From: Saccharibacillus sacchari DSM 19268
GTDB lineage: Bacteria > Bacillota > Bacilli > Paenibacillales > Paenibacillaceae
Reading direction: 5' to 3'
Length of the DNA stretch: 64,000 nt
Assembly: GCF_000585395.1 (NCBI RefSeq)
Contig: NZ_KK073875.1
Coordinates: 5,198,274 to 5,262,273, forward strand
This document shows positions 5,510 to 61,274 of this stretch, piece after piece. A program made the position numbers and the translations under genes. The notes under the pieces are model-generated. The model searched no databases. It saw only the letters and a list, made by a program, of their open reading frames with translations, and was not told where the DNA came from. The first letter of the stretch is position 1. The number at the start of each line of letters is the position of its first letter.

Positions 5510-5667
5510 GAGAAACTCCAACGTAGCGGGAAGCGAGAAGACGGAGAGAAAAATTCAGTGAAAGACGCCTTTGAGCGCGGAAAGCCGTAGGCTTTCTGCG
5601 CGAGACAGCGTCTTGAACGAATTTTTCTCGGAGTCTTCTCGCTTCCCGCGCCCACGTAACTTTCGAG
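5510..5667 (+). repeat. Structured palindromic repeat, copy 1
   Basis: Full-length member (158 bp) of the seven-copy family in this window. The outer stem is GGGAAGCGAGAAGAC with GTCTTCTCGCTTCCC. A 3x3 internal loop GGA/GGA follows. The middle stem is GAGAAAAATTC with GAATTTTTCTC, then a loop AGTGA/GAAC, stem AAGACGC with GCGTCTT, loop CTTTGA/GAGACA, and an apical stem GCGC...GCGC capped by GGAAAGCC gta GGCTTTC. It lies between the M20 gene and thg1-like gene. Orientation is plus, the same as the upstream gene. Confidence 0.9.
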
Positions 5668-5675
5668 AGCAACCT

Positions 5676-5704
5676 AAACCGACGATATTCGAATCGTCGG
5701 TTTT
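5676..5704 (+). terminator. Rho-independent terminator
   Basis: AACCGACGAT pairs with ATCGTCGGTT and is followed by six T. It ends transcripts from the M20 gene after they have passed through repeat copy 1. Confidence 0.8.
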
Positions 5705-5738
5705 TTCACACCTTCCCTATAAAGGAGTTTTTCACATC

Positions 5739-6482
5739 ATGCATATCGACGACTTCGGCACGCGCATGAAACATTACGAAAATGCGTTCCGCCATCACTT
5801 GCCCGGCCGCATGCCCGTCTTGATCCGCATCGACGGCTGCCATTTTCACACCTTCACCAAAGGGATGAACAAACCTTTTGACGAACCGCTGATCCATGTA
5901 TTCTGGGAAACGTGCAAATACCTCGCGCAAAACATCATGGGCTGCAAACTGGTCTACCATCAAAGCGACGAAATTTCGATCCTGCTGACCAACTACGATA
6001 AGCTGACGACCGCTTCGTGGTTTGAAAACAATCTGCAAAAGATCGTCTCTGTCGCCGCGTCCATGGCAACGGCCAAATTTAATGAAGAGATTCGCAACGT
6101 CTATCCCGATCGACCGCTCGCCACCTTCGACGCGCGCGCCTGGGTACTGCCGCAAGACGAAGTGACGAACTATTTTCTTTGGAGACAGATGGACGCGACC
6201 AAGAACAGCATCTCCATGGTCGCCCAAGCCAACTTCCCGCATCACGAGCTGCAAGGATTGGACGGCAGCGCATTGCAGGAGAAGCTTTTTTCGGAAAAAG
6301 CGCTGAATTGGAACGACCTTCCCGCTTGGCAAAAACGCGGCGCCTGCATCGTAAAGAAAGAGTTCTTGAAAGGCACGGCCGTGCGGCGCAGATGGGAAGT
6401 CGATCTCGACACGCCCGTCTTTTCACAGGATCGGGACTACATCAATCGCTTCGTTTATCCGGATCGGGAAAAGGGCGTGTAG
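5739..6482 (+). CDS. Thg1-like protein (tRNA(His) guanylyltransferase family, 3'-5' RNA polymerase)
   Basis: 247 residues. Thg1 family enzymes add nucleotides in the 3'-5' direction to RNA 5' ends; bacterial members (TLPs) repair 5'-truncated tRNAs in a template-dependent way. Visible motifs are the palm-domain metal site RIDGCHFHTFTKG with D32, and the second acidic site YHQSDEISIL with D77/E78. LATFDARAW and WRQMDATKNSIS correspond to the conserved mid-region. A longer reading frame starts at 5571 inside repeat copy 1, but AAAGGAG at 5721-5727 fixes the start at 5739. The next gene begins two bases after its stop, so the two are almost certainly translated together. Confidence 0.92.
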   Translation: MHIDDFGTRMKHYENAFRHHLPGRMPVLIRIDGCHFHTFTKGMNKPFDEPLIHVFWETCKYLAQNIMGCKLVYHQSDEISILLTNYDKLTTASWFENNLQKIVSVAASMATAKFNEEIRNVYPDRPLATFDARAWVLPQDEVTNYFLWRQMDATKNSISMVAQANFPHHELQGLDGSALQEKLFSEKALNWNDLPAWQKRGACIVKKEFLKGTAVRRRWEVDLDTPVFSQDRDYINRFVYPDREKGV

Positions 6483-6483
6483 C

Positions 6484-6933
6484 ATGGAATGCATCATATT
6501 CATGGGCATCCAGGCTACCGGCAAATCGACTTTTTACAAGGAACGTTATATCGACACCCATCTGCGGCTCAATATGGACATGCTTAAGACAAGGTATCGG
6601 GAAAAGCTTTTGTTACAGGCTTTTCTCGAAAGTAAGCAGCCGTTTGTGGTCGATAATACGAATCCGCTGCCGGAAGATCGGCTCACCTATATTGAAGAAG
6701 CGAAAAAACACCGGTTCTCCGTCGTCGGCTTCTACTTCGAACCGGATTATGCGGAAAGCATTCGGCGTAACGCGCAGCGGAGCGGCAAATCCGTCGTACG
6801 GGAAATCGGCATCCAAAGCGTCATGAAAAAACTCACCGTCCCTTCTTTTGCGGAAGGATTCGATGAGCTGTACCGAGTGACGTCGGTCGATGGCGTTTTT
6901 ACCGTAAAACGAATCGCCGACGAAGAAGCGTGA
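6484..6933 (+). CDS. Polynucleotide-kinase-like P-loop ATPase (AAA_33/Pnkp-kinase type)
   Basis: 149 residues. The P-loop GIQATGKST is at residues 8-16. D32 (NMDML) is placed like the general base of polynucleotide 5'-kinases. VVDNTNP at 55-61 is the second strand typical of this group, and R residues near 97-100 (NAQRSGKS) could form the lid. By family it would phosphorylate an RNA or DNA 5'-OH or a small molecule. Because it starts two bases after the Thg1-like gene, RNA-end processing is the likely role: a 5'-kinase would prepare ends for, or recycle ends from, the 3'-5' polymerase. Substrate is inferred only. Confidence 0.8.
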   Translation: MECIIFMGIQATGKSTFYKERYIDTHLRLNMDMLKTRYREKLLLQAFLESKQPFVVDNTNPLPEDRLTYIEEAKKHRFSVVGFYFEPDYAESIRRNAQRSGKSVVREIGIQSVMKKLTVPSFAEGFDELYRVTSVDGVFTVKRIADEEA

Positions 6934-6942
6934 GCGCTCGAC

Positions 6943-7461
6943 TCAAACGTTGGATTTCCGCAGCACCTGCCGAATAAACGCGGTCTTCCCGTCCACGTAA
7001 GCGTCAATGTCCGTTCGATGCGCTTCGGCAAGCCGCTTCTTGATTCGGGCATATTCATCGCGGGCTTCGTCGTGCCGCCGCAGGTAATCGCGCAGGGCGA
7101 TATGCTCCAAATAACCTTTTCCGTCCGGCGGGCAGACATAGAGGTGGAACTTCATAAAGCCCAAGTCCCTCGTCGGGTGAAAAGCTTCTCGGCCTTCCAC
7201 GCCCAGATTGCCTTGATGTTCAAATCCTTGCAGGCGCAAGCGTTCAATGATTTCGGGCAGCACTTCTATGCTTTTCATTACGGCATCCAGATCGATAATC
7301 GGCTTGGCCGGCAGTCCTTCGACCGACGTGCTGCCTACATGCTCGATGCGGATCAATAAGTCGCCGATCCATTCCTTTAAGGCATTGGAGATCTTTTCGA
7401 ACTCCTCCGGCCAAGCTGGATCGTAAGGAACAACTTCGATGAATCGGGTGCGTTCAGCCAT
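6943..7461 (-). CDS. GrpB/UPF0157 family nucleotidyltransferase-fold protein
   Basis: 172 residues. The start PYDPAWPEEFEKI, the IEHVGSTSVEGLPAKPIIDLD signature and the later HLYVCPPDGKGYLEHIALRDYLR are diagnostic for GrpB/UPF0157. The fold is of the DNA polymerase-beta superfamily (G-S and D-x-D motifs). Some members sit at the C-terminus of dephospho-CoA kinase, but the free-standing ones have no settled role. The start follows AGGAGG. It is convergent with the kinase gene, with only ten bases between the two stops. Confidence 0.9.
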   Translation of the reverse strand: MAERTRFIEVVPYDPAWPEEFEKISNALKEWIGDLLIRIEHVGSTSVEGLPAKPIIDLDAVMKSIEVLPEIIERLRLQGFEHQGNLGVEGREAFHPTRDLGFMKFHLYVCPPDGKGYLEHIALRDYLRRHDEARDEYARIKKRLAEAHRTDIDAYVDGKTAFIRQVLRKSNV

Positions 7462-7587
7462 CTTTTTTTCCTCCTGATTTTCTTTTTCGACAGGGTTGTT
7501 TTCCGAGCTTCTTCTATAGTAACCTATATTTTAGCACCCAACGAAAACGCTTTAAATTCAATTTGACGACACCGGAGGAAATCCCGC

Positions 7588-8826
7588 ATGGCAAGAACGC
7601 TTTTCCCGAGACTTCGCGGCAACAGCCGGGGCTGCCTCGCTTTCGAACCGTTTTTCCTGATTCCGTACAGCATGATGGCGACTTACGCCACGCTGTACAT
7701 GTACGAGCTAGGCGTGAGCGAAACGAATATCGGCTGGATCACGACGCTCGGGCTGATGGTGCAGGTGATGTCGGCTTTTATGAGCGGATACCTGACTGAC
7801 CGAATGGGCCGCAAACGAGCTATTCTCACCTTCGACGTGCTCAGTTGGAGCGTGGCGATGTTGATCTTTGCTTTTTCGCAAAATATCTGGTTCTTCGTCA
7901 TCGCGACATTCATTAACGGGCTTCAACGGGTTCCGCATGTGGCCTTCTACTGTCTGATCGTCGAGGACACGCCGAAAAAAGATCGGACCTATGTGTTCAC
8001 GCTGCTTCAGATCATCGGCGTTGTCGGCGGACTGTTCGCACCGCTCGGCGGTCTGCTGGTCGACCATTACGGATTGGTGGACGGAACGCGGATCATGTAT
8101 GTCATGTGTTCCGTGCTGATGACCTTCCAGTTTATCGGGCGGCATATCACGACGAAAGAAACGGAAATGGGCTATCGGAAAATGCAGGAGACGAAGGATC
8201 TCGGGCTGAAAAAGAGCATGATCGATTATAGCGGCGCGATCCGTGATCTGTTTGCCAGTCGCAGTCTGATGTTGATCTTCGTCGTTTACATTCTGTTCAA
8301 CTTCCAAATGACGCTCAAAACGACGTATCTTTCGCTGTATCTGGCCGATTATCTGAAGGTGGACAGCGGGCTGATCTCGCTCGTGCCGGCCGTATCCTCT
8401 ATCGTGATGCTGCTCGCGCTGTGGTTCATCATGCCGAAGATTCCCGCCGAAGGCGAGACGCGCTCGATGATGGCGGGATTCGCGCTGTCGGTATTGTCGA
8501 ACGTGATGCTGGTGATCTGGCCGACGTCGAATCTGGCCTGGATCGGCTTGAGCACGGTGCTTGCGGCCGTAGGCTTAATGATCAGCTCGCCGTACCTGGA
8601 AGCGGCCGTGCAAAACGCGATCGACGACGAAAAAAGGGCCAAAGTGTTCTCGATGCTCTCCGTCGTGATCCTGCTGCTGACTTCTCCGGCGGGGATCGTG
8701 GGAGGCTGGGCGTATACGCTCGACCCTCGGATTCCGATTTGGATCATTACGGGATCGTTCGCGGCGGCGTTCGTGTTCTTGATGATCTACTTGAATCGGG
8801 TGCGGGGAGGAAAGGCCTATTCGTGA
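7588..8826 (+). CDS. MFS transporter
   Basis: 412 residues with about twelve hydrophobic segments. The loop between segments 2 and 3 has the MFS motif A (GYLTDRMGRKRAIL). Members exchange solutes across the cytoplasmic membrane using proton or substrate gradients; many in this position are drug or sugar exporters. Nothing in the sequence or in the neighbours fixes the substrate. The start follows CCGGAGG. Confidence 0.88.
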   Translation: MARTLFPRLRGNSRGCLAFEPFFLIPYSMMATYATLYMYELGVSETNIGWITTLGLMVQVMSAFMSGYLTDRMGRKRAILTFDVLSWSVAMLIFAFSQNIWFFVIATFINGLQRVPHVAFYCLIVEDTPKKDRTYVFTLLQIIGVVGGLFAPLGGLLVDHYGLVDGTRIMYVMCSVLMTFQFIGRHITTKETEMGYRKMQETKDLGLKKSMIDYSGAIRDLFASRSLMLIFVVYILFNFQMTLKTTYLSLYLADYLKVDSGLISLVPAVSSIVMLLALWFIMPKIPAEGETRSMMAGFALSVLSNVMLVIWPTSNLAWIGLSTVLAAVGLMISSPYLEAAVQNAIDDEKRAKVFSMLSVVILLLTSPAGIVGGWAYTLDPRIPIWIITGSFAAAFVFLMIYLNRVRGGKAYS

Positions 8827-8841
8827 GGGGAAGCTTGGGGC

Positions 8842-8858
8842 GCTGCGGGAGAAATTCG
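8842..8858. repeat. Possible relic arm of the structured repeat
   Basis: Seventeen bases, GCTGCGGGAGAAATTCG, match repeat copy 2 exactly (19620-19636). The rest of the palindrome is missing, so this is either a decayed copy or chance. Confidence 0.35.
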
Positions 8859-8894
8859 CTATAGCTTCTTTAAATAGATCTTTTGGAAAGTTGT

Positions 8895-8925
8895 AGAGGT
8901 GTCGCCTAAGCGGCGTCTCTTTTTT
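8895..8925 (+). terminator. Rho-independent terminator after the MFS gene
   Basis: GAGGTGTCGCC and GGCGTCTC form an imperfect stem followed by seven or more T, about 70 bases after the MFS stop. Confidence 0.7.
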
Positions 8926-9040
8926 TATTTGAAAAAGGAAAAAGATTAGGAAGCGAAATTCGGTGCGGTTTGATATGAGCCTAGCAGGTTTGTTATAAAT
9001 GGGTTGAGGCTATGGCGAAGAAAAGAAGCGGGAGGAAGTT

Positions 9041-9724
9041 ATGCAAGCCGTAATGAAGCATGCTTGGAATTTGAGCGAAAAGGAAGCGATCGGGCTTCAA
9101 GAGGAATGGGCGGGAACAGTCTCGTTGGAGACTCCGCAAGGTTGGAAAGTTCGGAGGGTCGCGGGGGTGGATGTGGCTTACGACAAAAACGACGATCGGT
9201 TGATCGCGGCGGTGGTGGTGTTGGATGCGGAGACGCTGGAGGTCGTGGAGACGGCTGCCGCGGAAGGCAAGCCTTCGTTCCCTTACATTCCGGGACTGTT
9301 TTCGTTTCGCGAGCTGCCGCCCGTGTTGGAAGCGTTCAAGCGTCTGAAAACACCGCCCGACTTGATCGTGTGCGACGGGCAGGGCATCGCGCATCCGCGG
9401 AGATTCGGGCTGGCCAGCCATCTGGGACTGCTGCTGGATATACCGACGATCGGATGCGGCAAGACCCGGCTGATCGGGGAACACGAAGAACCGGACGGCG
9501 AACGCGGATCGGCTTCGCCGCTGGTCGACGGAGACGAGACGATTGGTTACTGCCTGCGTACGCAAAACGGCGTCAAGCCGGTCTACGTCTCGGCGGGTCA
9601 CCGTTTATCCCAGGCAGACGCTTGCGAATGGATCTTGAAACTGACTCCGCGCTACCGCCTTCCTGAAACGACGCGGCAGGCGGATCAATGCGTGAAACGG
9701 GAACTGGGCAAGCCGACGAGCTGA
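9041..9724 (+). CDS. nfi: Endonuclease V (deoxyinosine 3'-endonuclease)
   Basis: 227 residues. Cleaves DNA (and in some organisms RNA) one base 3' of inosine, repairing deaminated adenine. Family motifs are in order: VAGVDVAY with the first catalytic Asp, YIPGLFSFRELPP with the wedge, LIVCDGQGIAHPRRFGLASH with the second acid, GCGKTRLIG and VYVSAGHR. Length is normal. No signal peptide. The start codon follows GGGAGG. It stands alone between the MFS gene and an unknown gene. Confidence 0.95.
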   Translation: MQAVMKHAWNLSEKEAIGLQEEWAGTVSLETPQGWKVRRVAGVDVAYDKNDDRLIAAVVVLDAETLEVVETAAAEGKPSFPYIPGLFSFRELPPVLEAFKRLKTPPDLIVCDGQGIAHPRRFGLASHLGLLLDIPTIGCGKTRLIGEHEEPDGERGSASPLVDGDETIGYCLRTQNGVKPVYVSAGHRLSQADACEWILKLTPRYRLPETTRQADQCVKRELGKPTS

Positions 9725-9790
9725 TCGCGTTCGAATCGAATGTCGGCGCTTCGGGCAGTGCGGAACGCGAAATCGAAAGGAGTTCATTCA

Positions 9791-10672
9791 ATGACCGATA
9801 TCCTCAAAACCTACAAAAAACGCATCGCCCTTTTCAAAAAACTCTACCATTATAATAACGGCACTTACGACCGGCAGCGCGGCGTAACGGTCTATGACGT
9901 AAGTATCCTGTCTGCCGAAGAATTGGCTTTCATGAATGAACTCCAATGGCAACCCAATGATATCGTGCAGATGAATCACGATGAACTGATTCCTGCGATT
10001 ACCGAACTCATTCGTGACGAACGTTTGTCCAAAGAACGTCTGATCGGCGAATTCGTAGCTGCGGCAGGAGGCAGCTATCGGCGCGGGATTAACGGCTTGA
10101 TGAACCTTCATTTCGCGACGCTTATTCCCGACCATCCCTATCATCCGGCGCAAAGACTCGCGGCATGCGGGGTTTGCGGATTTAGCGAACTGTCGACTCG
10201 AACGCACGATAATCTATCCGATATCCGGGAATCTTTATGGCTCGGCTATAATTGGCATTCGCCGAAAGGCATTTATGCGGATCTTACGGAACGGATCGAA
10301 CTGCCGGAAATTCATCCGACCGAAGAAGATGCGGCGGCACTCAAAAGCTTGCTTGAAGGCGTTGATCGCGCTCAAGCTGGCGAGACTCCGGGAAAACTGG
10401 AGAAACGACTCAGCGCGGAAAAGGTCATCAAAGGCAATTCGGGAACGCGGCGCGCTCTGCTCAGTACCTTGGCCGAAGTCGGCGTAATTCCGAATGCTGC
10501 CATGCCTGTCGATCCGAAGCGTTGGATCAATCACGAAGTGATGGTTCAAGCAGGCATGGATCTGGACTCCACGCAAGGACGCTCCGATATCGAGATGCCT
10601 TACGCCGGATGGCGCGGACATCTCGGCGTCGATTGGGATCGGGCGAAGGAATGGTTCGGCGCTTATTTGTAA
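9791..10672 (+). CDS. Hypothetical protein, 293 residues
   Basis: Not recognised. The start at 9791 is chosen for the strong AAAGGAG at 9777-9783; the frame is open for 17 codons further upstream. The protein is soluble and mixed alpha/beta. It contains a C-x-x-C pair (AACGVCGFSEL, about residues 120-130) within a stretch that also has H residues (NLHFATLIPDHPYHPAQR), so a bound metal is possible. The C-terminus is Trp-rich (PYAGWRGHLGVDWDRAKEWF). A bidirectional terminator follows. Confidence 0.7.
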   Translation: MTDILKTYKKRIALFKKLYHYNNGTYDRQRGVTVYDVSILSAEELAFMNELQWQPNDIVQMNHDELIPAITELIRDERLSKERLIGEFVAAAGGSYRRGINGLMNLHFATLIPDHPYHPAQRLAACGVCGFSELSTRTHDNLSDIRESLWLGYNWHSPKGIYADLTERIELPEIHPTEEDAAALKSLLEGVDRAQAGETPGKLEKRLSAEKVIKGNSGTRRALLSTLAEVGVIPNAAMPVDPKRWINHEVMVQAGMDLDSTQGRSDIEMPYAGWRGHLGVDWDRAKEWFGAYL

Positions 10673-10702
10673 GCTAGCCGCGCTCATGTTCTCTACATAG
10701 TC

Positions 10703-10746
10703 AAAAGAAGCCGAATGCGACAAGAATCGCTTTCGGCTTCTTTTTT
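10703..10746 (+). terminator. Bidirectional terminator
   Basis: AAAAGAAGCCGAA pairs with TTCGGCTTCTTTT, with an inner GCGA/TCGC stem and a T run on each strand. It serves the unknown plus-strand gene and the permease on the minus strand. Confidence 0.85.
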
Positions 10747-10780
10747 ATGGAACGTTCTTGTTAGAATGTAACCCTCAAAC

Positions 10781-12142: not shown

Positions 12143-12242
12143 TTGACTTCCTCCGATTCTTTTGCACAGTAATGCACACCCGCGTTTGCGAGACGCATAC
12201 TCTATCCTACAACAAAAAACGAAAATCCGCATCGGGTCGCGA

Positions 12243-12282: not shown

Positions 12283-12310
12283 GAGTATGTCTACTTTAAA
12301 TAGACATATT

Positions 12311-18386: not shown

Positions 18387-18944
18387 TCACGGCTGAAGCC
18401 GCTCCTCCACCTCTTCCCTCCAAAAAGTTCCCTGGGCAAAGGCCGCGGGGTCGATGCGTCCGAACTCTTGCACGACCCATTTCAGCGTATCCTGCGGGAT
18501 TTCGTTTTGCAAAAAAGCATCCGGTCCGTTCTCGCGGATCGTGCGCTGAACCATCTCGGCGTAGATCAACAGAAATTCCGCAAAGCGCGGCACGGACGAA
18601 TTAATAAACCATTCCGTACCTCCCTGATCCATTCGGATACAGACGACTTCAGATCCGCCGGCTTTCAGGCAAACCGGGTCCCCGTATCCGGTCGTCCCCA
18701 GCAGCCAGTAGGCGGAATATTCCTTCGGCATGCCGAAGGCGCTTTTCAAATCGGACAATCGTCCTTCGCCGGAACGAAATTCAAGATACGGGGCCGAATC
18801 GGCGGGAAGCCCGGCTTGGCATAAAAAGCGCCTGGCCTCGTCCGTGATCGGCACAGCCTCCAGCGCTTCGCAGTCGAAGCGCAGCAGCGGGCCGTCCACG
18901 GCCGTATTCCAGGCAGCTATAAATCGTTCGGGCGTCATAGGCAC
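18387..18944 (-). CDS. SUKH-4-like immunity-type protein
   Basis: About 185 residues. The opening TPERFIAAWN, PITDEARRFLCQAGLPADSAPYLEF, the GTTGYGDPVCLK strand with VVCIRMDQ, and WFINSSVPRFAEFLLIYAEM fit the SUKH-4 group of toxin-immunity proteins. Start choice is open: GTG at 18944 lies eight bases after GGAGG, but GTG 18953 and ATG 18938 are in frame. Same strand as, and 38 bases after, another immunity-like gene. No toxin gene is adjacent. Cytoplasmic. Confidence 0.7.
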   Translation of the reverse strand: MPMTPERFIAAWNTAVDGPLLRFDCEALEAVPITDEARRFLCQAGLPADSAPYLEFRSGEGRLSDLKSAFGMPKEYSAYWLLGTTGYGDPVCLKAGGSEVVCIRMDQGGTEWFINSSVPRFAEFLLIYAEMVQRTIRENGPDAFLQNEIPQDTLKWVVQEFGRIDPAAFAQGTFWREEVEERLQP

Positions 18945-18982
18945 TTCTTCCACCTCCGTCTTTCTACTCCACCTTGATTGGA

Positions 18983-19507
18983 TTAATTCGACGCGAAGGC
19001 AGGATTCTCCCCCGTCTCTTCGCCGCGAGTCAACGCTTCCGTAAAACGATCCACTTTCTCCAGATAAAGCTGCGGCTGCGTTCGTTTGATATCCAGCAAG
19101 GTATTCACGACGCGCCGTGCGGCACGTGCGGGAATCGTTCGGAGCGCGCGGCTGTAAGCTTCAATATAGGGAAAACCCGGGCGATCGGCATTCAGCAGCA
19201 TGCGATGCAGGCGTACGGCCCATCCTTCCGCCCGCGGAAACAGGCCCGGTACGCCAAGTGCCAAGTAATGCATGCTCGCCTGGATTCCGCAGCGATCCGC
19301 AATATAAAAGATCGTCTCGAGCAAATCTCCTGCGGCGCTGGGTTCAATCACGTCATCCTCCAGCATGCGGCACAGATCGGTAATCACCTCTGCCGAAGCA
19401 TTCTGGCCAAGTTCGTTTAAAATATCGGAAAACCTCTCCAGGTCATCTTCTTCTCCGGCAAAATCGCGCATTCGGTACAGCTCGTCCAGCAGTTTTCGGT
19501 CCGGCAA
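18983..19507 (-). CDS. Hypothetical helical protein, possibly immunity-type (Imm30-like)
   Basis: 174 residues, all-helical by composition. Start is a TTG at 19507, nine bases after AGGAGG. The stretch LERFSDILNELGQNASAEVITDLCRMLEDDVIEP followed by a Leu/Ile-rich helix resembles the Imm30 pattern of toxin-immunity proteins, but I am not sure. It forms a likely two-gene unit with the SUKH-4-like gene that follows. No transmembrane segment or signal peptide. Confidence 0.6.
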   Translation of the reverse strand: MPDRKLLDELYRMRDFAGEEDDLERFSDILNELGQNASAEVITDLCRMLEDDVIEPSAAGDLLETIFYIADRCGIQASMHYLALGVPGLFPRAEGWAVRLHRMLLNADRPGFPYIEAYSRALRTIPARAARRVVNTLLDIKRTQPQLYLEKVDRFTEALTRGEETGENPAFASN

Positions 19508-19600: not shown

Positions 19601-19605
19601 TGAGG

Positions 19606-19740
19606 TACAGTGAGCGGGGGCTGCGGGAGAAATTCGTTCAAGACGCTGTCTCACCCGGAAAATCGATTGAATTTTTGATAGGAATTTTCCGGGTTCAAAG
19701 GCGTCTTTCACTGAATTTCTCCCTCCGCCCAGTCACTATA
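19606..19740 (-). repeat. Structured palindromic repeat, copy 2
   Basis: Shorter member (135 bp), on the minus strand, downstream of the minus-strand lipoprotein gene. Read on the minus strand the order is: GGC, loop GGA, stem GGGAGAAATTC, AGTGA loop, AAGACGCC, TTTGA, apical stem CCCGG...CCGGG, GAGACA, GCGTCTT, GAAC, GAATTTCTCCC, loop GCA, GCC. Outer stem differs from the full-length copies (AGTGA/TCACT). Confidence 0.88.
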
Positions 19741-31332: not shown

Positions 31333-31379
31333 TGCGGGCATGCCTCCTTTGTCGCCTTCCAAGGTAGACAATCTGTCTA

Positions 31380-31549
31380 GAAAGTTACGTGGGCGCCGGG
31401 AAGCGAGAAGACTGCGAGAGAAATTCGTTCAATCCGCTGTCTCACTCGGAAAATGGATGGGATTTAAATAAGGAATTTTCCGAGTTCAAAGGCGTCTTTC
31501 ACTGAATTTCTCTCTCCGTCTTCTCGCTTCCAGCTACGTTTGAGTTTCT
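31380..31549 (-). repeat. Structured palindromic repeat, copy 3 (inside the glycan operon)
   Basis: Full-length member (170 bp), minus orientation, between the LplC-type permease gene and the GH3 gene, all on the minus strand. Outer stem TGGAAGCGAGAAGAC / GTCTTCTCGCTTCC; loop GGA/GCA; stem GAGAGAAATTC / GAATTTCTCTC; loop AGTGA/GAAC; stem partly broken (AGACGC against GCGGAT); loop TTTGAA/TGAGACA; apical stem CTCGGAAAATTCC...TTTTCCGAG. Ends GAAACTC and GTTACGT...TTTC match copies 1 and 4. A TAGACA/TGTCTA hairpin adjoins at 31365-31379. Confidence 0.9.
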
Positions 31550-31626
31550 TGACACTTTAGTACCTTACCAGGCGGTTTTTTTTGTTTTAAGGGGGTATCT
31601 TTTTTCGAACCCGTTTTCGGCTCCTC

Positions 31627-41282: not shown

Positions 41283-41300
41283 CCAATCATATAAAAATAT

Positions 41301-41486
41301 CGAGAAACTCCAACGTAACTGGAAGCGAGAAGACGCAGAGAAAAATTCAGTGAAGGAGCGATAGCGCTCGCCTTTGAAATCGGGAAAATACAAATAAAAA
41401 TTCAATCTTTTTTCCCGATTTCAACACGCGACCGGAACGAATTTTTCTCGCAGTCTTCTCGCTTCCCCCGCCTACGTAACTTTCGA
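41301..41486 (+). repeat. Structured palindromic repeat, copy 4
   Basis: The longest and most diverged copy (186 bp), plus orientation, downstream of the plus-strand coiled-coil gene. Outer stem TGGAAGCGAGAAGAC / GTCTTCTCGCTTCC, loop GCA/GCA, stem GAGAAAAATTC / GAATTTTTCTC. The left arm carries an extra GAGCGATAGCGCTC palindrome between AGTGAA and CGCCTTTGA, and the right arm has AACACGCGACCGGAAC instead of the usual sequence. Apical stem ATCGGGAAAA...TTTTCCCGAT. Confidence 0.88.
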
Positions 41487-41522
41487 GGATGCTCGATCAT
41501 ATGATCCCCATTTCAATCATCA

Positions 41523-47748: not shown

Positions 47749-47806
47749 ACCGCTCCTTCTTCCGAAAAAAGAAATAAGCAAAGAAAGCCGGCCTCCTTTC
47801 GTAGAG

Positions 47807-47869
47807 TGCACCCCTTAAAATGGACATTAGAAAACCCCTTGGGTAAACTAATGAGCATTTGGGGGTGCA
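47807..47869 (+). promoter_or_regulatory. Terminal repeat can mask the orfA ribosome site
   Basis: TGCACCCC in the left end (47807-47814) is complementary to GGGGTGCA (47862-47869), which contains the orfA ribosome site. Only transcripts entering from outside the element contain both, so the fold would block translation from read-through mRNA. Confidence 0.5.
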
Positions 47870-47875
47870 TTTTTT

Positions 47876-48202
47876 ATGGCAAAAAAAGGACAAACCTTTA
47901 AGTCGTATCCGGTCGAACTGAAAAGAGAAGCGATTCGGTTACACATCGAAGAGAAATGGACGTATCGAAAGATTACCGCACATTTCCAAATTCAAGATGC
48001 AGATCGAGTCAGAAAGTGGGTCAGGAAATATCGAGAGCAAGGCGAGTTTGGCCTGCTGGATCAGCGAGGACGAAAAGAAGAATATCAAGATACAGACCGA
48101 CAAATTGAGCGATTGAAGCGGGAGAATACGCTGCTAAAAAAGTGCTTAGCCATCTGGAAGGAGGAAAAACTCAAGCCAAGTATGCGCTTATTCGACAAGT
48201 AA
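47876..48202 (+). CDS. IS3-family transposase OrfA
   Basis: 108 residues. Helix-turn-helix DNA-binding protein (SYPVELKREAIRLHIEEKWTYRKITAHF) with a C-terminal Leu-zipper-like helix (DRQIERLKRENTLLKKCL). Binds the element ends; the main product is made with OrfB by -1 frameshifting. The slippery heptamer A AAA AAG is at 48136-48142, in the right frame. Confidence 0.93.
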   Translation: MAKKGQTFKSYPVELKREAIRLHIEEKWTYRKITAHFQIQDADRVRKWVRKYREQGEFGLLDQRGRKEEYQDTDRQIERLKRENTLLKKCLAIWKEEKLKPSMRLFDK

Positions 48203-49026
48203 ACGAGAACCAAACGATTCGGTGGCTATGCCAGATCTTTGGTGTTTCTCGAAGTGGATATTACGCTTGGTTAAAGCGACAAGAGGCTACACCTGAAGCC
48301 GCAGACGCCAAGCTTGTTCATGCCATCTATTGGAAATACAACGGCATTTACGGGTACCGCCAGCTTCAACTCTTTCTGTGGCAGGATTGTGGAATCTGGA
48401 TGAATCACAAGAAAGTACTCCGACTCATGCAGAAGCTCCGGATTCAAGCCAGAGTCCGCAAAAAGCGCAGGTACAGATATACCGCAGACGCAGCCGGACT
48501 CGTCGCAGAAAATGTACTCAACCAACATTTCAAAGCCGACAAACCGAACGAAAAGTGGGTAACGGACATCACGCAGTACCGAGTTGGCGAGCGTTGGCTC
48601 TATCTCTCCGCAGTCAAGGATCTGTTTAATAACGAAATTGTCGCCTACCAGATCGGAGAACACCCGGACAAAGAACTCGTGAAGCAGACGTTCAAGAAAG
48701 CGTTCCGCAAACGAAAAGACGTGACGGGTGTGGTCATTCACAGTGACCGTGGAGCCCCGTACACGTCTCATCTTTACCACGACATGCTGCCCAAGGTTGG
48801 CGCCCAAATCAGCATGTCTCGCGGGGGCAATTGTTATGACAATGCCTCCATAGAGAGCTTCTTCTCGCATTTAAAAACGGAAGGACTCTATCCGTATTCT
48901 ATCCGAAGTTTGGACGAGGCGCAAAGACGGATCGAGCAATACATTCGCTTTTACAACACCAAACGACCACAGAGAAAACTAAACAAACTGACGCCGGTAG
49001 AGTACCGACGTCAGTTCATTTCTTAG
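48142..49026 (+). CDS. IS3-family transposase OrfB (DDE catalytic domain)
   Basis: 294 residues as read from the GTG at 48142, which is exactly the codon entered after a -1 slip at the A AAA AAG heptamer, so the active protein is an OrfAB fusion. HTH_21 region RQVNENQTIRWLCQIFGVSRSGYYAWLKR, then the RNase-H-like core with catalytic acids in KWVTDITQY (D), VVIHSDRGAPY (D) and NASIESFFSHLKTE (E). The frame is intact, so the element may be active. Confidence 0.95.
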   Translation: MLSHLEGGKTQAKYALIRQVNENQTIRWLCQIFGVSRSGYYAWLKRQEATPEAADAKLVHAIYWKYNGIYGYRQLQLFLWQDCGIWMNHKKVLRLMQKLRIQARVRKKRRYRYTADAAGLVAENVLNQHFKADKPNEKWVTDITQYRVGERWLYLSAVKDLFNNEIVAYQIGEHPDKELVKQTFKKAFRKRKDVTGVVIHSDRGAPYTSHLYHDMLPKVGAQISMSRGGNCYDNASIESFFSHLKTEGLYPYSIRSLDEAQRRIEQYIRFYNTKRPQRKLNKLTPVEYRRQFIS

Positions 49027-49207
49027 GGTGTTTTTAACTGTCCATAAAATAGGGGCTTGACTATTCGGGAGCGTCGGCTTTCTTCATCTTATAAGTCCGA
49101 ACGGACTTCGGCGCGTTGAACGGCCGGGCTTTCGTGCAGTACCGTTTCCACGGATCACAACCGTTCTTATGGATAGCGGCACCTTTTCATGGTCTTCCTG
49201 CACCTCT

Positions 49208-54187: not shown

Positions 54188-54314
54188 CGACTCCCAGAAG
54201 CTAAGCGGAGGGAAAAATCAGTGAAAGACGCCTTTGAGCAAAGAAAGCCGGAGGCTTTCTGCGCGAGACAGCGTCTTGAACGATTTTTCCCGCAGCGCCT
54301 CCTTCGCCGAATTC
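54188..54314 (+). repeat. Structured palindromic repeat, copy 5
   Basis: Shorter member (127 bp), plus orientation, 3' of folE2. Core: loop GGA/GCA, stem GGGAAAAATC / GATTTTTCCC, AGTGA/GAAC, AAGACGC / GCGTCTT, CTTTGA/GAGACA, apical AGAAAGCC gga GGCTTTCT. The outer stem is weak. The apical part is nearly identical to copy 1. Confidence 0.88.
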
Positions 54315-54324: not shown

Positions 54325-54654
54325 TCACCTCCAAAACAACCCTTCCGGATCAAGCTCGAACTGTTCCAGCTGATCTTCGAAATCGGGCTGCGGTGCCAGC
54401 GACGGCGCCGCGGCCCATTTTCCGTCTTCCGTTTTGGCGTATAGGTTCCAAGCTCCCTGCTCCAAACGAAACTGCGCCAGATCCTTACCTTGCCAGCCGT
54501 AACGCGGCGGCTCCGGACGCTCCTCGCTCAAGGTCACGCGGTCCTCCTCCATCCGGTACACGATTCGCACCGCCCTGCGCATGCTCGGCGGAATTTTTTC
54601 CGAAATATAACCGCGAAGCAAAGCTTCCAATCTTTTCGTTTCCAGCGTACTCAT
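54325..54654 (-). CDS. DUF3024-type protein
   Basis: 109 residues. The pattern AVRIVYRMEEDRVTLSEERP, DLAQFRLEQGAWNLYAKTEDGKWAA and a C-terminal ELDPEGLFWR is that of DUF3024, small alpha/beta proteins of unknown role. Follows the FeoB-like gene by 22 bases on the same strand, so it is probably the third gene of that operon. No signal peptide and no Cys or His cluster. Confidence 0.75.
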   Translation of the reverse strand: MSTLETKRLEALLRGYISEKIPPSMRRAVRIVYRMEEDRVTLSEERPEPPRYGWQGKDLAQFRLEQGAWNLYAKTEDGKWAAAPSLAPQPDFEDQLEQFELDPEGLFWR

Positions 54655-54676
54655 CGATATTCCCGCCTTTATCGTT

Positions 54677-56344: not shown

Positions 56345-57465
56345 GTGCAGTCCTCTTCGCAGCAGGACAGATCGATCAGCAGCATCCCTTCCCGCCGATA
56401 TTCGTTCAGAGGAGAGAGGTCGAGTCCCAGCCGTCTGGCAATCTCTCCGCCCACAACGCCGAAGCGTTGACGAAACTTATAAATGAAGCAAAAGATCAGA
56501 TCGTCGTGCACCACGCTAGGTCCGGCCAAAAATAACCCGGGCGTCACGGTAGACTCGTCGTATTCGTTCAGCAGCACGGCTCCGTCTTCCCTTTTCGCAA
56601 AATGGTCTTCCACCATACGCAAGCTGCCTGTAAAGCCATTTGCCAAAATCGGAGGATGAGGCGTGTGCAAAAAGCTTTCTTCGCCATTTGCATTTTCGCT
56701 GTAGAGCAGGTAGCCTCCATCATCCTTGGGCTCGATCCAATGCACCTCGTGACCCGCCAACAGCTTAATTTTCCCGTCTTCGACATCCTTCAAACGATCC
56801 TTCGTAAACGGTGATAACGTCAAGCTGGGATCGCTGCTCCCCTTCTCCGTCCAGCGCCCGCTATGATCGATGATCGTCACCTTTTTACCCTGCCTAGCCA
56901 AATGAATCGCCGCGTCCGCGCCGCTCTCGTATCCGCCGATCACGATATATTCGTCGCCCGGAAGCGCCGCCCATTCACGAACGAGACTGCTGTGCATGGC
57001 ATATTCGGCTCCGGGAAAAGCGTCCGTGTTCGGATACTGGAACTCGCCCGCGGCCCAGATCACATAACGGCTCCGCATAAGGCCGCGGCTGCTGTCCAGT
57101 TCGAATCCGCCGCCTTCCAAGGGACGAATAGCCGTGATATCGGTATTCGCGTAGATCGGCAGCTTGCGATAAGCGGCCAACGCTTCCAGATAATCCGCAT
57201 ATTCGTCTCCCGAAGGATGCTCCGTTCCCAGCGTAAAAGCAGGAGACGTGCGCAGCGATATCGAATTTAAATCAAGCAGACCATAAGCGTTTCCGGTAAA
57301 AGAAGGCGTGATCATGCGCGTCTCCTTCGGCCAAAGCCGAAAAGAAGAGCCGATTCCGCCGCGATCCACCACGGCGAAACGGCCGATTTTCAAATCCTGC
57401 AACACACATGCTATGCCTAAGCCCGCGGCGCCGGCGCCGACGACCAGACAATCGAACTCTTCCAT
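56338..57465 (-). CDS. CzcO/TrkA-like FAD-dependent oxidoreductase with Cys-rich tail
   Basis: 375 residues. FAD-binding VVGAGAAGLGIACVL at the N-terminus, the second Rossmann motif YIVIGGYESGADAAIHLA for NAD(P)H, and a third flavin segment TVTPGLFLAGPSV. It resembles flavoprotein monooxygenase-like proteins annotated CzcO. The last residues are SCCEEDCTC, a likely metal- or thiol-binding tail. First gene of the operon behind a near-perfect Zur box; overlaps the FeoB-like gene by seven bases. Could reduce a metal or thiol at the transporter. Exact reaction unknown. Confidence 0.85.
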   Translation of the reverse strand: MEEFDCLVVGAGAAGLGIACVLQDLKIGRFAVVDRGGIGSSFRLWPKETRMITPSFTGNAYGLLDLNSISLRTSPAFTLGTEHPSGDEYADYLEALAAYRKLPIYANTDITAIRPLEGGGFELDSSRGLMRSRYVIWAAGEFQYPNTDAFPGAEYAMHSSLVREWAALPGDEYIVIGGYESGADAAIHLARQGKKVTIIDHSGRWTEKGSSDPSLTLSPFTKDRLKDVEDGKIKLLAGHEVHWIEPKDDGGYLLYSENANGEESFLHTPHPPILANGFTGSLRMVEDHFAKREDGAVLLNEYDESTVTPGLFLAGPSVVHDDLIFCFIYKFRQRFGVVGGEIARRLGLDLSPLNEYRREGMLLIDLSCCEEDCTC

Positions 57466-57486
57466 TTGGGTTCACCTCGAAACTTT

Positions 57487-57541
57487 AATAGTAATTATTA
57501 CGATTTATTCAGAGCATACGGCGTTCCTGCTATTCTGTCAA
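57487..57541 (-). promoter_or_regulatory. Promoter and near-perfect Zur box of the flavoprotein/FeoB-like operon
   Basis: On the minus strand: TTGACA, 17 bases, TATGCT (57536-57541 and 57513-57518). Just downstream, across the start of transcription, is TCGTAATAATTACTA (57489-57503). The Zur box TCGTAATNATTACGA is matched at 13 of 14 fixed positions; Fur (TGATAAT) and PerR (TTATAAT) half-sites fit worse. A repressor bound there would block transcription. Confidence 0.75.
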
Positions 57542-57607
57542 ATCAAAGTCACTTGAATTTTGCGGCATCATGTTCTATTTTGGTTGTAGGTATGTTTTTT
57601 GTATAGG

Positions 57608-57634
57608 TGAAACTTTAGTCCCGCCTTGGGCGTC
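57608..57634 (+). promoter_or_regulatory. Candidate ECF-sigma promoter of amidase 1
   Basis: TGAAAC (57608-57613), 17 bases, CGTC (57631-57634). Resembles promoters of envelope-stress ECF sigma factors such as SigM/SigW. A parallel GAAAC-N16-CGTC stands before the paralogous gene. Confidence 0.6.
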
Positions 57635-57698
57635 CAATTTATATAAAGGTTACTCGTCATGCCATCAAGTACATACATCATTCAAAGGAGAAGTGAGA

Positions 57699-59132
57699 AT
57701 GAAACTCGGAAATTTTGCTTGGAAAAAGAGCATCGTGGTGTTTGCCGCTCTTATGCTGTTGGCGCTCTTTACGCTTCCCGGAACGGTTCGGCACGCGTCC
57801 GCAGCCGCCGCGGTCGAAGCAAGCATCGTATTGGACGGTCAGACGATCAACGGGGCAGAGCCGGTCATCGTCAACCAAACGACGATGGTACCGATTCGCG
57901 TCGTCTCCGAACAATTGGGTTATTCGGTCAATTGGAACCAATCCGCGGGACGCGTGACGATCGGAGGAGAAGCCTCGCCGCTCGTACTGACGATCGGAAG
58001 CACGACGGCGGATTCGGCTTCAGGCAGCGTACAACTGGAGCAGCCGCCGTTCGTTCGTTCCAGCACCACCTATGTACCGCTGCGCTTCGTCGGTTCCCAG
58101 ATGGGTCTCGGCGTCAAGTGGGAGCAGGCTTCCCGGACCGTATTTTTGCAGACTCCGGCTCAAGACCCATCTCTTCCGCCCGCCGTCGAGACGCCGGACC
58201 CAACGCCTGTCGTTCCTTCGAATAACGCGTCAATCGATGCCATCAGCTTCAGCGATAACCGCTTGACGATATCGGCCGGAGCGAACGTAACGCCGAAAAG
58301 CTCTTCATTGGCAGGCCCGGACCGGATCGTTGTCGATCTGCCGAACAGCGCTTTCGGACCAGGGTTGCTTGCCAACGGCAGCCTGGGATTGGGACAAGTC
58401 GGTACGCTGGCCGTAGAAAATTCTTCCCTGGTCAAGCAAGTTCGATACTCGCTGTTCAGCGAAAGCCCTTCTACGGTTCGAGTGGTGATCGATCTGAATC
58501 GGGCTGTCGGATACAACATCTACACGGAAGGCAATCTGATCTTCGTTGATCTGAACGACGACGGAACGGCTCCGCCTATCGGAACGGACGGCAAAAAGGT
58601 CGTGGTGATCGATCCGGGACACGGCGACCATGACTCGGGCGGCGTCGGTATTACCGGCGTCAAAGAAAAAGACATGGTGCTTCAGGTCGGATTAAAAGTA
58701 GCTGCGCTGCTCAAGCAGGAGCCGAATATCGACGTCATTATGACGCGCAGCGACGACACGTTTATCGCGCTGGATGACCGGGCCAAGATCGCCAATAATG
58801 CCGGAGCGGATGTATTTTTGTCCATCCACGGCAACAAAGCCAACGCGAGCAGCGCGGTCGGCACCGAAACGTATTACGCCGATGCAGCTCGCAGCAAAAC
58901 GCTGTCCGACACGATCCAAAAACACGTTCAGCAGGCGACAGGCTTCCGCGACCGCGGCTCTAAACAAGCCAACTTCGTCGTCATTCGCAAAACGACCATG
59001 CCCGGCGCACTGGTCGAAGTCGGATTTTTGAGTAACGGCGAAGAAGAAACTTTGATGATGCAAGAAGACTTCCAGCAAAAAGTAGCCATGGCGATCGTCG
59101 CGGGCTTGAAAGAATATCTGGGCGTGAACTGA
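57699..59132 (+). CDS. N-acetylmuramoyl-L-alanine amidase (stalk + AMIN + Amidase_3), paralogue 1
   Basis: 477 residues, secreted (signal peptide ending near RHASAAAA). Cleaves the amide link between MurNAc and the stem peptide of peptidoglycan. Stalk domain about 40-150 (VNQTTMVPIRVVSEQLGYSVNW and SSTTYVPLRFVGSQMG), a Pro/Thr-rich linker, AMIN domain about 175-285, and zinc amidase about 298-475 with KVVVIDPGHGDHDSGG, the IHGNKA His and the catalytic Glu in LVEVGFLSN. Start ATG 57699 follows AAAGGAG; the frame is open 43 codons upstream. Tandem with a close paralogue. Confidence 0.93.
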   Translation: MKLGNFAWKKSIVVFAALMLLALFTLPGTVRHASAAAAVEASIVLDGQTINGAEPVIVNQTTMVPIRVVSEQLGYSVNWNQSAGRVTIGGEASPLVLTIGSTTADSASGSVQLEQPPFVRSSTTYVPLRFVGSQMGLGVKWEQASRTVFLQTPAQDPSLPPAVETPDPTPVVPSNNASIDAISFSDNRLTISAGANVTPKSSSLAGPDRIVVDLPNSAFGPGLLANGSLGLGQVGTLAVENSSLVKQVRYSLFSESPSTVRVVIDLNRAVGYNIYTEGNLIFVDLNDDGTAPPIGTDGKKVVVIDPGHGDHDSGGVGITGVKEKDMVLQVGLKVAALLKQEPNIDVIMTRSDDTFIALDDRAKIANNAGADVFLSIHGNKANASSAVGTETYYADAARSKTLSDTIQKHVQQATGFRDRGSKQANFVVIRKTTMPGALVEVGFLSNGEEETLMMQEDFQQKVAMAIVAGLKEYLGVN

Positions 59133-59173
59133 TCCTTTCTTCCTGCTCTTTTCTTTCTCTTCTTTCTAAAAAA

Positions 59174-59194
59174 TAGAACCTGCAATGTAGGTTC
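59174..59194 (+). terminator. Hairpin left of repeat copy 6
   Basis: AGAACCT and AGGTTCT pair around GCAATGT. No T run follows. Mirrors the terminator at 59384-59407 on the far side of repeat copy 6. Confidence 0.45.
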
Positions 59195-59200
59195 TCAGAT

Positions 59201-59376
59201 GTCGAAAAAGTTCAACGTAGCTGGAAGCCAGAAGGCGGAGAGAAAAATTCAGTGAAAAACGCCTTTGAACTCGGAAAACTCCTTATTTAAATCCAATCCA
59301 TTTTCCGAGTGAGACAGCGTTTTGAACGAATTTTTCTTGGAGCCTTCTGGCTTCCCACGCCACGTGACTTTATCGA
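59201..59376 (+). repeat. Structured palindromic repeat, copy 6
   Basis: Full-length member (176 bp), plus orientation, between the two amidase genes. Outer stem TGGAAGCCAGAAGGC / GCCTTCTGGCTTCC (two matched changes from copy 1), loop GGA/GGA, stem GAGAAAAATTC / GAATTTTTCTT, AGTGA/GAAC, AAAACGC / GCGTTTT (a further matched change), TTTGAA/TGAGACA, apical CTCGGAAAA...TTTTCCGAG. The palindrome extends outward through GTCGA/TCGAC and the flanking hairpins. Confidence 0.92.
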
Positions 59377-59383
59377 CAATCTG

Positions 59384-59410
59384 AGAACCCGCAATCGCGG
59401 GTTCTTTTTT
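59384..59410 (+). terminator. Rho-independent terminator of amidase 1
   Basis: AGAACCCGC pairs with GCGGGTTCT, followed by six T. Transcripts from the first amidase gene pass through repeat copy 6 before ending here. Confidence 0.8.
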
Positions 59411-59476
59411 GTTTTTGCAGCCTATAAGTTTTACTCGGCAACTAATTTTTCCTGAATCAATTTATTTTGCCTTAGA

Positions 59477-59501
59477 GAAACTTTTTAATCGTAATTGCGT
59501 C
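59477..59501 (+). promoter_or_regulatory. Candidate ECF-sigma promoter of amidase 2
   Basis: GAAAC (59477-59481), 16 bases, CGTC (59498-59501), about 25 bases before the start codon. Same elements as before the first amidase. Confidence 0.6.
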
Positions 59502-59526
59502 TATTAGCTTGAAGGGAGTAGTGATA

Positions 59527-60954
59527 ATGAGATTCGAACGAAAGTTATGGAAAAAGATAGCCGCCATGCTTCTGGCTATCGTGCTCACGGTTACGCTGGC
59601 TCTGCCCGGCACAATCGGACAGGCTTCTGCCGCAACGACTGAACCCGGAATTATGTTGGACGGCCGAAAGCTGGATAACGCCCAGGCCATTACGATTGGC
59701 GGAACAACGATGGTGCCGATTCGCGTTGTTTCCGAACAACTCGGCCACTCGGTGAATTGGAATCAGGCGACAGGACGAATACAGATCGGAACGGCTCCAG
59801 CCTCGTTGACCTTGACTCTGGGCAGCCGGACGGCAGCTTCATATTCGGGTAGCATTACCATGCAGCAAGCCCCGTTTGTTCGTTCGAATACGACCTATGT
59901 ACCGCTTCGTTTCGTCGGCTCGCAAATGGGCTTGGCCGTTCGATGGGAACAGTCTTCAGGTACCGTTTATCTGCAAACGCAGCTTGAAGCCCCTTCCCTT
60001 CCGACCACGCCTCCGACAGATACGTCGACACCGCCTGCCGATTCGAACACGGCGTCGATCAACAGTATCAGCTTCAGCGACAATCGTCTGACGATCTCGG
60101 CGGACAGCTCCGTGAAGCCCCAAGGTTCCGTGCTCGCAGGCCCCGATCGGATCGTGGTCGACCTGCCGGGCAGTTCGTTCGGACCGGGACTGCTTCAAAA
60201 CCAAACGGCATCCACGGGACAAGTCGTCACCCTGCCCGTAACCGGTTCTTCGGCGGTCAAGCAGGTTCGTTACTCGCTGTTCAGCCAAAGTCCGTCTACG
60301 GTACGGGTCGTGATCGATCTCAACCGTTCGACCGGACACAAGCTGTATACGCAAGGCAATCTGGTACTCGTCGATCTGAACGACGACGGCGCGGCCGCAC
60401 CGATCGGCACCGGCGGCAAAAAAGTCGTGGTCATCGATCCCGGACACGGCGATCAGGACCCCGGCGGTATCGGCGTGACCGGCAAAAAGGAAAAAGACAT
60501 GGTACTGAGCGTCAGCCTGAAGGTCGCCTCGCTGCTCAAGCAGGAACCGAATATCGACCTGATCATGACGCGAACCGATGACACCTTTATCCCGCTGGAC
60601 GGACGCGTCAAAATTGCCCAAGACGCCAAAGCCGACGTCTTCCTGTCGATCCACGGCAACGCCGCATCATCCAACGCAGGCGGAACCGAGACGTTCTATG
60701 CGGATACCAAACGCAGCAAAGCCTTATCGGACACCATTCAAAAGCATGTCTTGGCGGCTACCGGATTCCGGGATCGCGGCTCCAAACAAGCCAACTATCT
60801 CGTCATTCGCAAAACGACCATGCCCGCCGCCCTGCTCGAAATCGGCTTCCTGACCAACGCCAACGAAGAAAAGCTGATGATGCAGGACGCTTTCCAACAA
60901 AAAGTAGCCAAAGCCATCGTAGCGGGCATTAAAGAATACTTAGCCAATAGCTGA
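59527..60954 (+). CDS. N-acetylmuramoyl-L-alanine amidase (stalk + AMIN + Amidase_3), paralogue 2
   Basis: 475 residues with the same plan as its neighbour and very similar sequence throughout, so a tandem duplication. Signal peptide LAIVLTVTLALPGTIGQASA. Stalk domain with GTTMVPIRVVSEQLGHSVNWN, AMIN domain about 170-285, amidase with KVVVIDPGHGDQDPGG, LSIHGNAAS and catalytic Glu in LLEIGFLTN. Differences cluster in the linker and surface positions. Start ATG 59527 follows GAAGGGAG. Confidence 0.93.
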   Translation: MRFERKLWKKIAAMLLAIVLTVTLALPGTIGQASAATTEPGIMLDGRKLDNAQAITIGGTTMVPIRVVSEQLGHSVNWNQATGRIQIGTAPASLTLTLGSRTAASYSGSITMQQAPFVRSNTTYVPLRFVGSQMGLAVRWEQSSGTVYLQTQLEAPSLPTTPPTDTSTPPADSNTASINSISFSDNRLTISADSSVKPQGSVLAGPDRIVVDLPGSSFGPGLLQNQTASTGQVVTLPVTGSSAVKQVRYSLFSQSPSTVRVVIDLNRSTGHKLYTQGNLVLVDLNDDGAAAPIGTGGKKVVVIDPGHGDQDPGGIGVTGKKEKDMVLSVSLKVASLLKQEPNIDLIMTRTDDTFIPLDGRVKIAQDAKADVFLSIHGNAASSNAGGTETFYADTKRSKALSDTIQKHVLAATGFRDRGSKQANYLVIRKTTMPAALLEIGFLTNANEEKLMMQDAFQQKVAKAIVAGIKEYLANS

Positions 60955-60990
60955 TTTCAACAGCTAAGCTTAACCGCGATCTGTTACTAA

Positions 60991-61028
60991 GGGGTACAAC
61001 GGACATCTGATCTGTTGTACCCCTTTTT
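60991..61028 (+). terminator. Terminator of amidase 2
   Basis: GGGGTACAAC pairs exactly with GTTGTACCCC, followed by five T. Confidence 0.88.
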
Positions 61029-61135
61029 ATATCCCCCACTTACTCCCCCAAAAAGCTCTTTTCGAAAACCTCTTTCCCAAAGCCTCTTGAGCTGGGCTGC
61101 CCTGAATCTTTTCAAACGATCCTAATCTCTTAAAC

Positions 61136-61274
61136 GGATGCCGCTAGGCGGAGAGAGAAATTCAGTTCATGACGCCTTTGAACTCGGAAAGATTCCTTAC
61201 AAAAATTCCAATCCATCTTTCCGAGTGAGACAGCGGCTTGAACGAATTTCTCTCGCAGCCTACGCAGCCTATCC
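61136..61274 (+). repeat. Structured palindromic repeat, copy 7
   Basis: Shorter member (139 bp), plus orientation, 3' of the second amidase. Outer stem GGAT...AGGC / GCCT...ATCC differs from other copies. Loop GGA/GCA, stem GAGAGAAATTC / GAATTTCTCTC, loop region AGTTC/GAAC, stem partly broken (GACGC against GCGGC), loop TTTGAA/TGAGACA, apical CTCGGAAAG...CTTTCCGAG. Unlike other copies, it lies beyond the gene's terminator. Confidence 0.88.

Follow-up and report, generated by a model that had tools for sequence, protein, structure and literature searches.

A window of 64,000 nucleotides, positions 5,198,274 to 5,262,273 of the single-contig, 6,075,237-base genome of Saccharibacillus sacchari DSM 19268, contains seven copies of a repeat that belongs to a large family of gene-free hairpins, mostly up to about 200 bases long. 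(G labels below denote genomes, G000 being the window's own, and L labels denote stretches of DNA.) The family is multi-copy and structurally constrained, varies in its presence between related species, and has members in several families within the order of Saccharibacillus and Paenibacillus. There are empty sites, cores differ at orthologous sites, and many long-armed copies are bordered by direct duplicates of a whole terminator hairpin, which suggests a mobile element with targets selected by the shape of the DNA. We think it probable that these repeats are a non-autonomous element, similar to miniature inverted-repeat transposable elements (MITEs), whose insertion, in trans, takes place at the feet of terminator hairpins that have been extruded.

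A family of covarying hairpins

All seven palindromic segments reported in a preliminary description of the window lie where they had been placed, and each folds as a hairpin. A covariance model (R1) built from 31 copies in G000 (alignment A1) matches the seven with E values from 1e-33 to 4e-15; only copy 4 (E 3.7e-15) is an independent match, because the other six are included in R1. The family is not confined to these seven. The G000 chromosome contains at least 150 copies by R1, counting the units of one tandem array, and a profile search of the window and 100 further stretches, mostly picked around model matches, recovered 212 distinct copies at E ≤ 1e-3, with 178 scoring at least 60.

The usual, long-armed form is ∼204 bp long, has the ends TCAACGTGTCGAG...CTCGACAGCCTGA, and is a hairpin throughout. 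In an extended set of 39 long-armed copies (34 from other Saccharibacillus genomes and five further loci, one of them from G000) most are 203–206 bp long, with one of 192 bp, seven of 240–241 bp, and two of 276 bp. The 241- and 276-bp elements carry additional hairpin modules in one or both arms; extra modules of ∼35–37 bp are seen at similar places of the left and/or right arm in L103, L110, L125, L133, and L160, and in L290 and L312. In G002, 11 end pairs were found that span 204–207 bp, and four of 26 end matches are unpaired. The element is therefore like a MITE in being short, gene-free, multi-copy, and bounded by terminal inverted repeats.

The preliminary description held that the stems vary while the unpaired loops are nearly constant. 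The covariation is real: standard pairs make up 95.9% of the cells in A1, both sides have changed in 18 of 34 pairs, none of 500 shuffles matches this, and sliding the partners reduces pairing to 51.7% or less. The contrast with the loops was overstated, however, as several stem positions (AAATTC, GCC) are equally invariant. The loop CTTTGA/GAGACA is present in 29 of the 31 copies (GAAACA in two), AGTGA/GAAC in 25 (AGTTC/GAAC in four, others in two), and GGA/GCA in 21 (GGA/GGA in three, others in seven). A loose search with the described motifs recovers six of the seven window copies, and two details were wrong: copy 7 has AGTTC where AGTGA had been assigned, and copy 4, the one missed, does not share the common architecture, having a different core with an extra mini-hairpin that places it in a second subfamily.

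This second core type, which differs from the first in its inner part, is present in copy 4 and others, and 47 examples were aligned (A3). Saccharibacillus supplied nearly all of them, Paenibacillus two, and a genome of another family one. Twenty-five of 37 pairs have changed on both sides, and none of 500 shuffles reaches either the score or the number of both-sided changes. The mini-hairpin loop is GNNA in 44 copies and GNA in three. Of the 44 four-base loops, 42 have T or C at the third position, unlike GNRA loops in RNA. In DNA, loops of the GNA and GNNA types have unusual stability when a C-G pair closes them. The other unpaired motifs, taken from copy 1 (GGA/GGA, TGAA/TGAA, and TGAG/CGAG), likewise give G.A mismatches on that strand, which suggests that the motif strand is recognised in a folded, single-stranded form. 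Changed pairs have mostly gone from one Watson-Crick pair to another, with 157 both-sided versus 20 one-sided cells in A3 and 102 versus 23 in A1, 14 of the latter at a single pair. This scarcity of wobble intermediates leans towards a fold at the level of DNA, without proving it.

The distribution was examined with a model (R2) built on the second core type. At E ≤ 1e-4, R2 matches 345 of 394 genomes of the same bacterial family and 236 of 296 genomes of the order, families f6, f9, and f10 included; in a class-wide sample, its matches are in 27 of 299 genomes, all within the same family. R1 matches 16 of 59 genomes, counting G000 itself. Among the matches listed are Saccharibacillus and also Paenibacillus selenitireducens, P. 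terrigena, P. glucanolyticus, and P. lautus. Six listed matches outside the Paenibacillaceae (L238, L282, L292, L300, L302, and L308) show no fold by eye and look like chance. When a 3.6-kb query that includes an element was compared with plasmids, the element was left uncovered by the matches among 15 of 18 records listed.

Duplicated terminator hairpins and empty sites

The 80-base flanks of each copy were compared with each other at a score of at least 12, with mispaired flanks serving as the null. Among 68 long-armed copies in G000, direct matches were found for 18 (0.10 expected) and inverted matches for 22 (0.51 expected); because palindromes score both ways, these amount to 26 copies with a match in either orientation, and a few of the inverted matches are not hairpins. 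In other Saccharibacillus genomes, 25 of 34 long-armed elements lie between hairpins repeated in direct orientation (0.10 expected): ten in S. qingshengii (G003), five each in S. endophyticus (G015) and S. alkalitolerans (G007), three in S. kuerlensis, and one each in CPCC 101409 and G002. Across the extended set, a direct duplication comparable to the target site duplication of a MITE is present in 28 of 39 copies, but its length varies from 16 to 32 bp (median 25). In 23 of these 28 copies it runs up to the element at both ends, and in the other five it is up to six bases off. As the duplicated hairpin mostly abuts the element, the length of the duplication follows that of the hairpin, and transposases are normally known by a near-fixed duplication length. 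By eye, elements also lie between matching hairpins in L337 and L338, from genomes of another family.

Such paired hairpins might instead be two functional terminators of convergent genes, with no duplication, in which case the repeat would be a functional RNA or 3' untranslated region element under selection. The covariation is in keeping with this, as are the 77 copies in convergent contexts among 210 examined by simple calls of open reading frames (ORFs; 105 others are co-directional and 28 divergent, and no background was computed), and the 62 of 71 copies within 40 bp of a stop codon that share one orientation to that gene. However, the two hairpins of a pair repeat asymmetric loops in direct orientation (L239, L259, L290, and L312), one G000 copy (L121) repeats non-palindromic bases in both flanks as well, empty sites have a single hairpin, and copies come and go between species. 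We therefore regard this explanation as improbable.

A regulatory role may nonetheless exist on top of mobility, and to that extent the structured RNA proposed in the preliminary description could stand as an added role; as an identity for the element it is opposed by the few wobble pairs and by comparison with Rfam, in which no family was matched in the window at gathering scores. Rfam 15, applied to 15 loci at E ≤ 1, gave three matches, of which PyrR (above its score) and isrC fall outside the element and MIR529 overlaps the L002 element at 25.6 bits, far under its gathering score of 75. No Rfam model attains its gathering score on an element, and a known structured RNA family was rejected as a candidate.

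Empty sites were sought by comparing 21 G000 copies with the orthologous sites in S. endophyticus CCM 8702 (G015). Thirteen align through in one block, at a resolution coarser than base by base, and two further copies, 4661908 and 850162, have an element in G015, that at 850162 being of the other core type. At 3890820 and 2895373 most of the core has been lost, and at 788940 the right side cannot be aligned. The remaining three sites have no element in G015: one clean hairpin is present at each of 2856276 and 3439743, and a short diverged hairpin, a less clear case, at 3783126. In the region around the window, 19 of 22 G000 matches were comparable with G015, and 14 of these are present (including two fragments of one copy) and five absent; at 5428571, one of the five, the outer arms are retained. 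Of the seven window copies only copy 4 is absent from G015, and at copies 3 and 6 the two genomes have different core types within outer arms that are similar.

The window copies and their flanking hairpins are as follows; two copies (19606 and 31380 in the preliminary numbering) are on the minus strand.

5476..5500, no strand: left duplicated terminator hairpin of copy 1 (AACCGACGATAGCAAACCGTCGGTT); resembles 5677–5702, even more so in the G015 orthologue
5501..5676, plus: copy 1, long-armed, standard core, short apical loop; both ends abut hairpins; orthologous copy in G015
5677..5702, no strand: right-hand member of the duplicated hairpin pair at copy 1, a terminator hairpin with a T run after it
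19608..19740, minus: copy 2, short-armed, standard core; orthologous copy in G015
31375..31555, minus: copy 3, long-armed, with no duplicated hairpin visible in its flanks; G015 orthologue has similar outer arms and another core type
41297..41490, plus: copy 4, long-armed, second core type (extra GNNA mini-hairpin); missing at the orthologous G015 site
54193..54308, plus: copy 5, short-armed; orthologous copy in G015
59175..59195, no strand: left duplicated terminator hairpin of copy 6; the two G015 hairpins share the identical loop CAATCG, in direct orientation
59196..59383, plus: copy 6, long-armed, standard core; G015 orthologue carries the second core type
59384..59405, no strand: right-hand member of the duplicated hairpin pair at copy 6, a terminator hairpin with a T run after it
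61136..61271, plus: copy 7, short-armed, AGTTC variant, long apical loop; the apical loop is shorter in the orthologous G015 copy

The positions of the copies stand, with the extents of two of them adjusted: without its flanking hairpins, copy 1 measures 176 bp (5501–5676) and copy 6 measures 188 bp (59196–59383), and both end exactly at flanking terminator hairpins that the preliminary description did not include.

Proposed mode of insertion and its alternatives

The most probable explanation for these observations is that an enzyme, acting in trans, joins the 3' ends of the element to the two stem-loops of an extruded cruciform, at the 5' foot of each. The two feet would lie side by side at the four-way junction, so that gap repair would copy the entire hairpin, whatever its length. 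The enzyme would be of the DDE type, possibly IS1182-like. If the target is a bidirectional terminator, a working half-terminator would be left on each side, making the site nearly neutral and allowing a high copy number, and this survival of terminators on both sides may explain how the genome tolerates so many insertions. Cores would later have been swapped between copies by recombination, and some presumably were lost through deletion of the palindrome.

IS1272 and TnSha1, members of the IS1182 family in staphylococci, likewise target stem-loops, several of them confirmed terminators, without primary sequence consensus and with partial deletion of the target, according to two reports (Furi and co-workers, PMC4923244; Wan and co-workers, PMC5678879). 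As described there, IS1272 is 1,945 bp long with its own transposase, whereas the element here is gene-free; its target structures are 21–85 bp in one of two models, compared with the 16–32 bp duplicated here; and it deletes or replaces the stem-loop, whereas the whole stem-loop is duplicated here. Duplication of a whole stem-loop is drawn only as a possible outcome, the hypothetical pathway b (PMC5678879). Our element thus has the stem-loop target without sequence consensus and lacks the target deletion. Given that lack, and as no search was aimed at IS1182-type transposases, it cannot be assigned to the IS1182 family.

A duplication whose length tracks the target hairpin is natural evidence for insertion into extruded cruciforms. 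It gives a testable mechanism to a family without an Rfam entry, and the element could report terminator extrusion in vivo. More tentatively, and with more doubt than conviction, we suggest that transposition here follows a new mode, with recognition by shape of both the element and its target. An enzyme outside the known RAYT, IS110, and reverse-transcriptase systems would insert a folded DNA hairpin into the middle of an extruded terminator cruciform, the hairpin rather than the enzyme would set the duplication length, and one element family would have spread in this way through much of the order.

The preliminary description had also raised a REPIN-like hairpin moved by a transposase encoded elsewhere. 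Its substance is supported by the duplicated hairpins and the empty sites, but not the version in which single-stranded DNA is moved by a RAYT/Y1 (HUH) transposase, as PF01797 is absent from 15 of 16 genomes of the genus, including G000, G002, G003, and G007. It was found only in G006, where the element has two copies by R1 and at least seven by R2. In favour of this version are a gene-free hairpin with unpaired motifs conserved on one strand, the many extragenic copies, the inverted pairs, of which 22 of 23 are in one order, and the tandem arrays; REPINs, too, have a hairpin as the mobile unit, compensatory changes, and tandem clusters (PMC3116915). The element here is longer. Y1 enzymes are not known to duplicate their target, and here whole hairpins are duplicated. 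A REPIN-like element is thus already largely refuted, and scarcely credible.

Retrotransposition, similar to that of short interspersed elements, would have a structured RNA reverse-transcribed into terminator hairpins, with the variable duplications arising from target-primed synthesis and with targeting like that of group IIC introns, which insert at intrinsic terminator hairpins. The variable-length target duplication, the terminator targets, and the conserved covarying fold would all suit it. However, no RVT_1 domain (PF00078) was found in G000, G002, G003, or G007 (it is present in four of the 16 genus genomes), and RVT_1-free G002 (L084), S. qingshengii (ten copies), and S. alkalitolerans (L265, L277, L301, L311, L312, and L333) still carry hairpin-flanked copies. 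Wobble pairs are also few, and no intron RNA of Rfam is matched. This route seems very unlikely.

Other mobilisers and partners were considered. An IS110/IS1111 DEDD transposase was rejected, PF01548 being absent from G000, G002, and G003 and present in three of the 16 genus genomes (G007, G012, and G015). Two repeated insertion sequence (IS)-like units were seen in the G000 stretches examined. That of the window, an IS3-like unit with rve domains, has ends unlike the element by eye and was rejected as a partner, and the other was not scanned.

Several points weigh against insertion at terminator cruciforms. Direct flank matches are lacking in 50 of 68 long-armed copies in G000, with 42 of 68 having no match in either orientation, and in nine of 34 elsewhere. 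No mobilising enzyme was found in G000 among the Y1, RVT_1, and IS110 types, the IS1182-type transposases not having been searched. No autonomous element with the same ends was found, the end pairs in G002 all being short, with its four unpaired ends not followed up, nor those in G007 and G008; a half-model search of the sampled stretches also found no half-element around an ORF. There is no direct observation of movement itself. Two patterns are not explained by the proposed insertion: the fixed minus-plus order of neighbouring elements (see below), and the flanks of the short-armed copies, in which locus-specific inverted matches (15 of 94; null 0.10) outnumber direct ones (3 of 94; null 0.20).

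These inverted flanks would be accommodated if template switching at palindromes during replication duplicated the terminator and spread the hairpin without any transposase, and deletion of cores, their exchange, and the tandem arrays are also consistent with such copying. However, it offers no way for an element with fixed ends to reach unlinked terminators, and it predicts inverted rather than direct copies; we disfavour it as the main route and consider it unlikely. In short-armed copies such as those at L100 (9940–10062) and L162 (9937–10058) the outer stem runs into the locus-specific flanks, and at L100 the extension passes through the stop codon of the adjoining gene.

The element also resembles other small repeats. 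The ERIC/IRU sequences of enterobacteria are small palindromic repeats, and the target of ERIC is TA, whereas a whole hairpin is duplicated here; this separation is by description and not by sequence. They share with our element their many intergenic copies, and the BOX, RUP, and SPRITE repeats of pneumococcus are likewise small and interspersed, SPRITE having terminator-like sequences (PMC10969869); the latter occur in other hosts and are again set apart by description, not sequence. No description of the present family was found in the open literature on repeats in Paenibacillus and Saccharibacillus and on terminator-targeting elements, as represented mostly by listings and the beginnings of abstracts, and a 2008 survey of stem-loop repeat families, available in part (PMC2267715), may or may not list a relative.

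Pairs, arrays and neighbouring features

Neighbouring elements occur in minus-plus order in 22 of 23 pairs, the exception being two fragments of one copy, and a terminator lies between the elements in most of the pairs inspected. In six genomes of genus g7 (G153, stretch L341; G200, stretch L342; G021; G134; G172; and G184) a minus-plus pair is present with the elements ∼330–350 bp apart, and this is possibly one conserved locus. A strand bias was considered and set aside, as the motif strand is on the G-rich strand in 118 of 203 copies, which is weak and confounded by gene direction.

A tandem array of about seven identical 124-bp units, each containing one short-armed element, was observed at L031 (4299–5153; G000 ∼4,581,300–4,582,150) and L159; it adjoins a locus of which more than 1 kb is duplicated with 100% identity. 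In P. selenitireducens (L236), three elements with the second core type are spaced every 260 bp (6844, 7104, and 7364), and the repeat unit holds a terminator-like hairpin.

The IS3-like unit of the window is a 1,262-bp insertion sequence at 47802–49063, with an identical second copy at G000 ∼4,010,030, and is absent at the orthologous place in G015. Copy 2 is adjoined by two immunity-type genes on the minus strand, at 18387–18953 and 18983–19507 (SUKH-4 and a sub-threshold Imm30 match). GC skew in the sampled stretches of the G000 chromosome is negative at 0–2.4 and 3.9–6.07 Mb and mostly positive only at 2.5–3.9 Mb, and these very unequal arms possibly reflect a large inversion.

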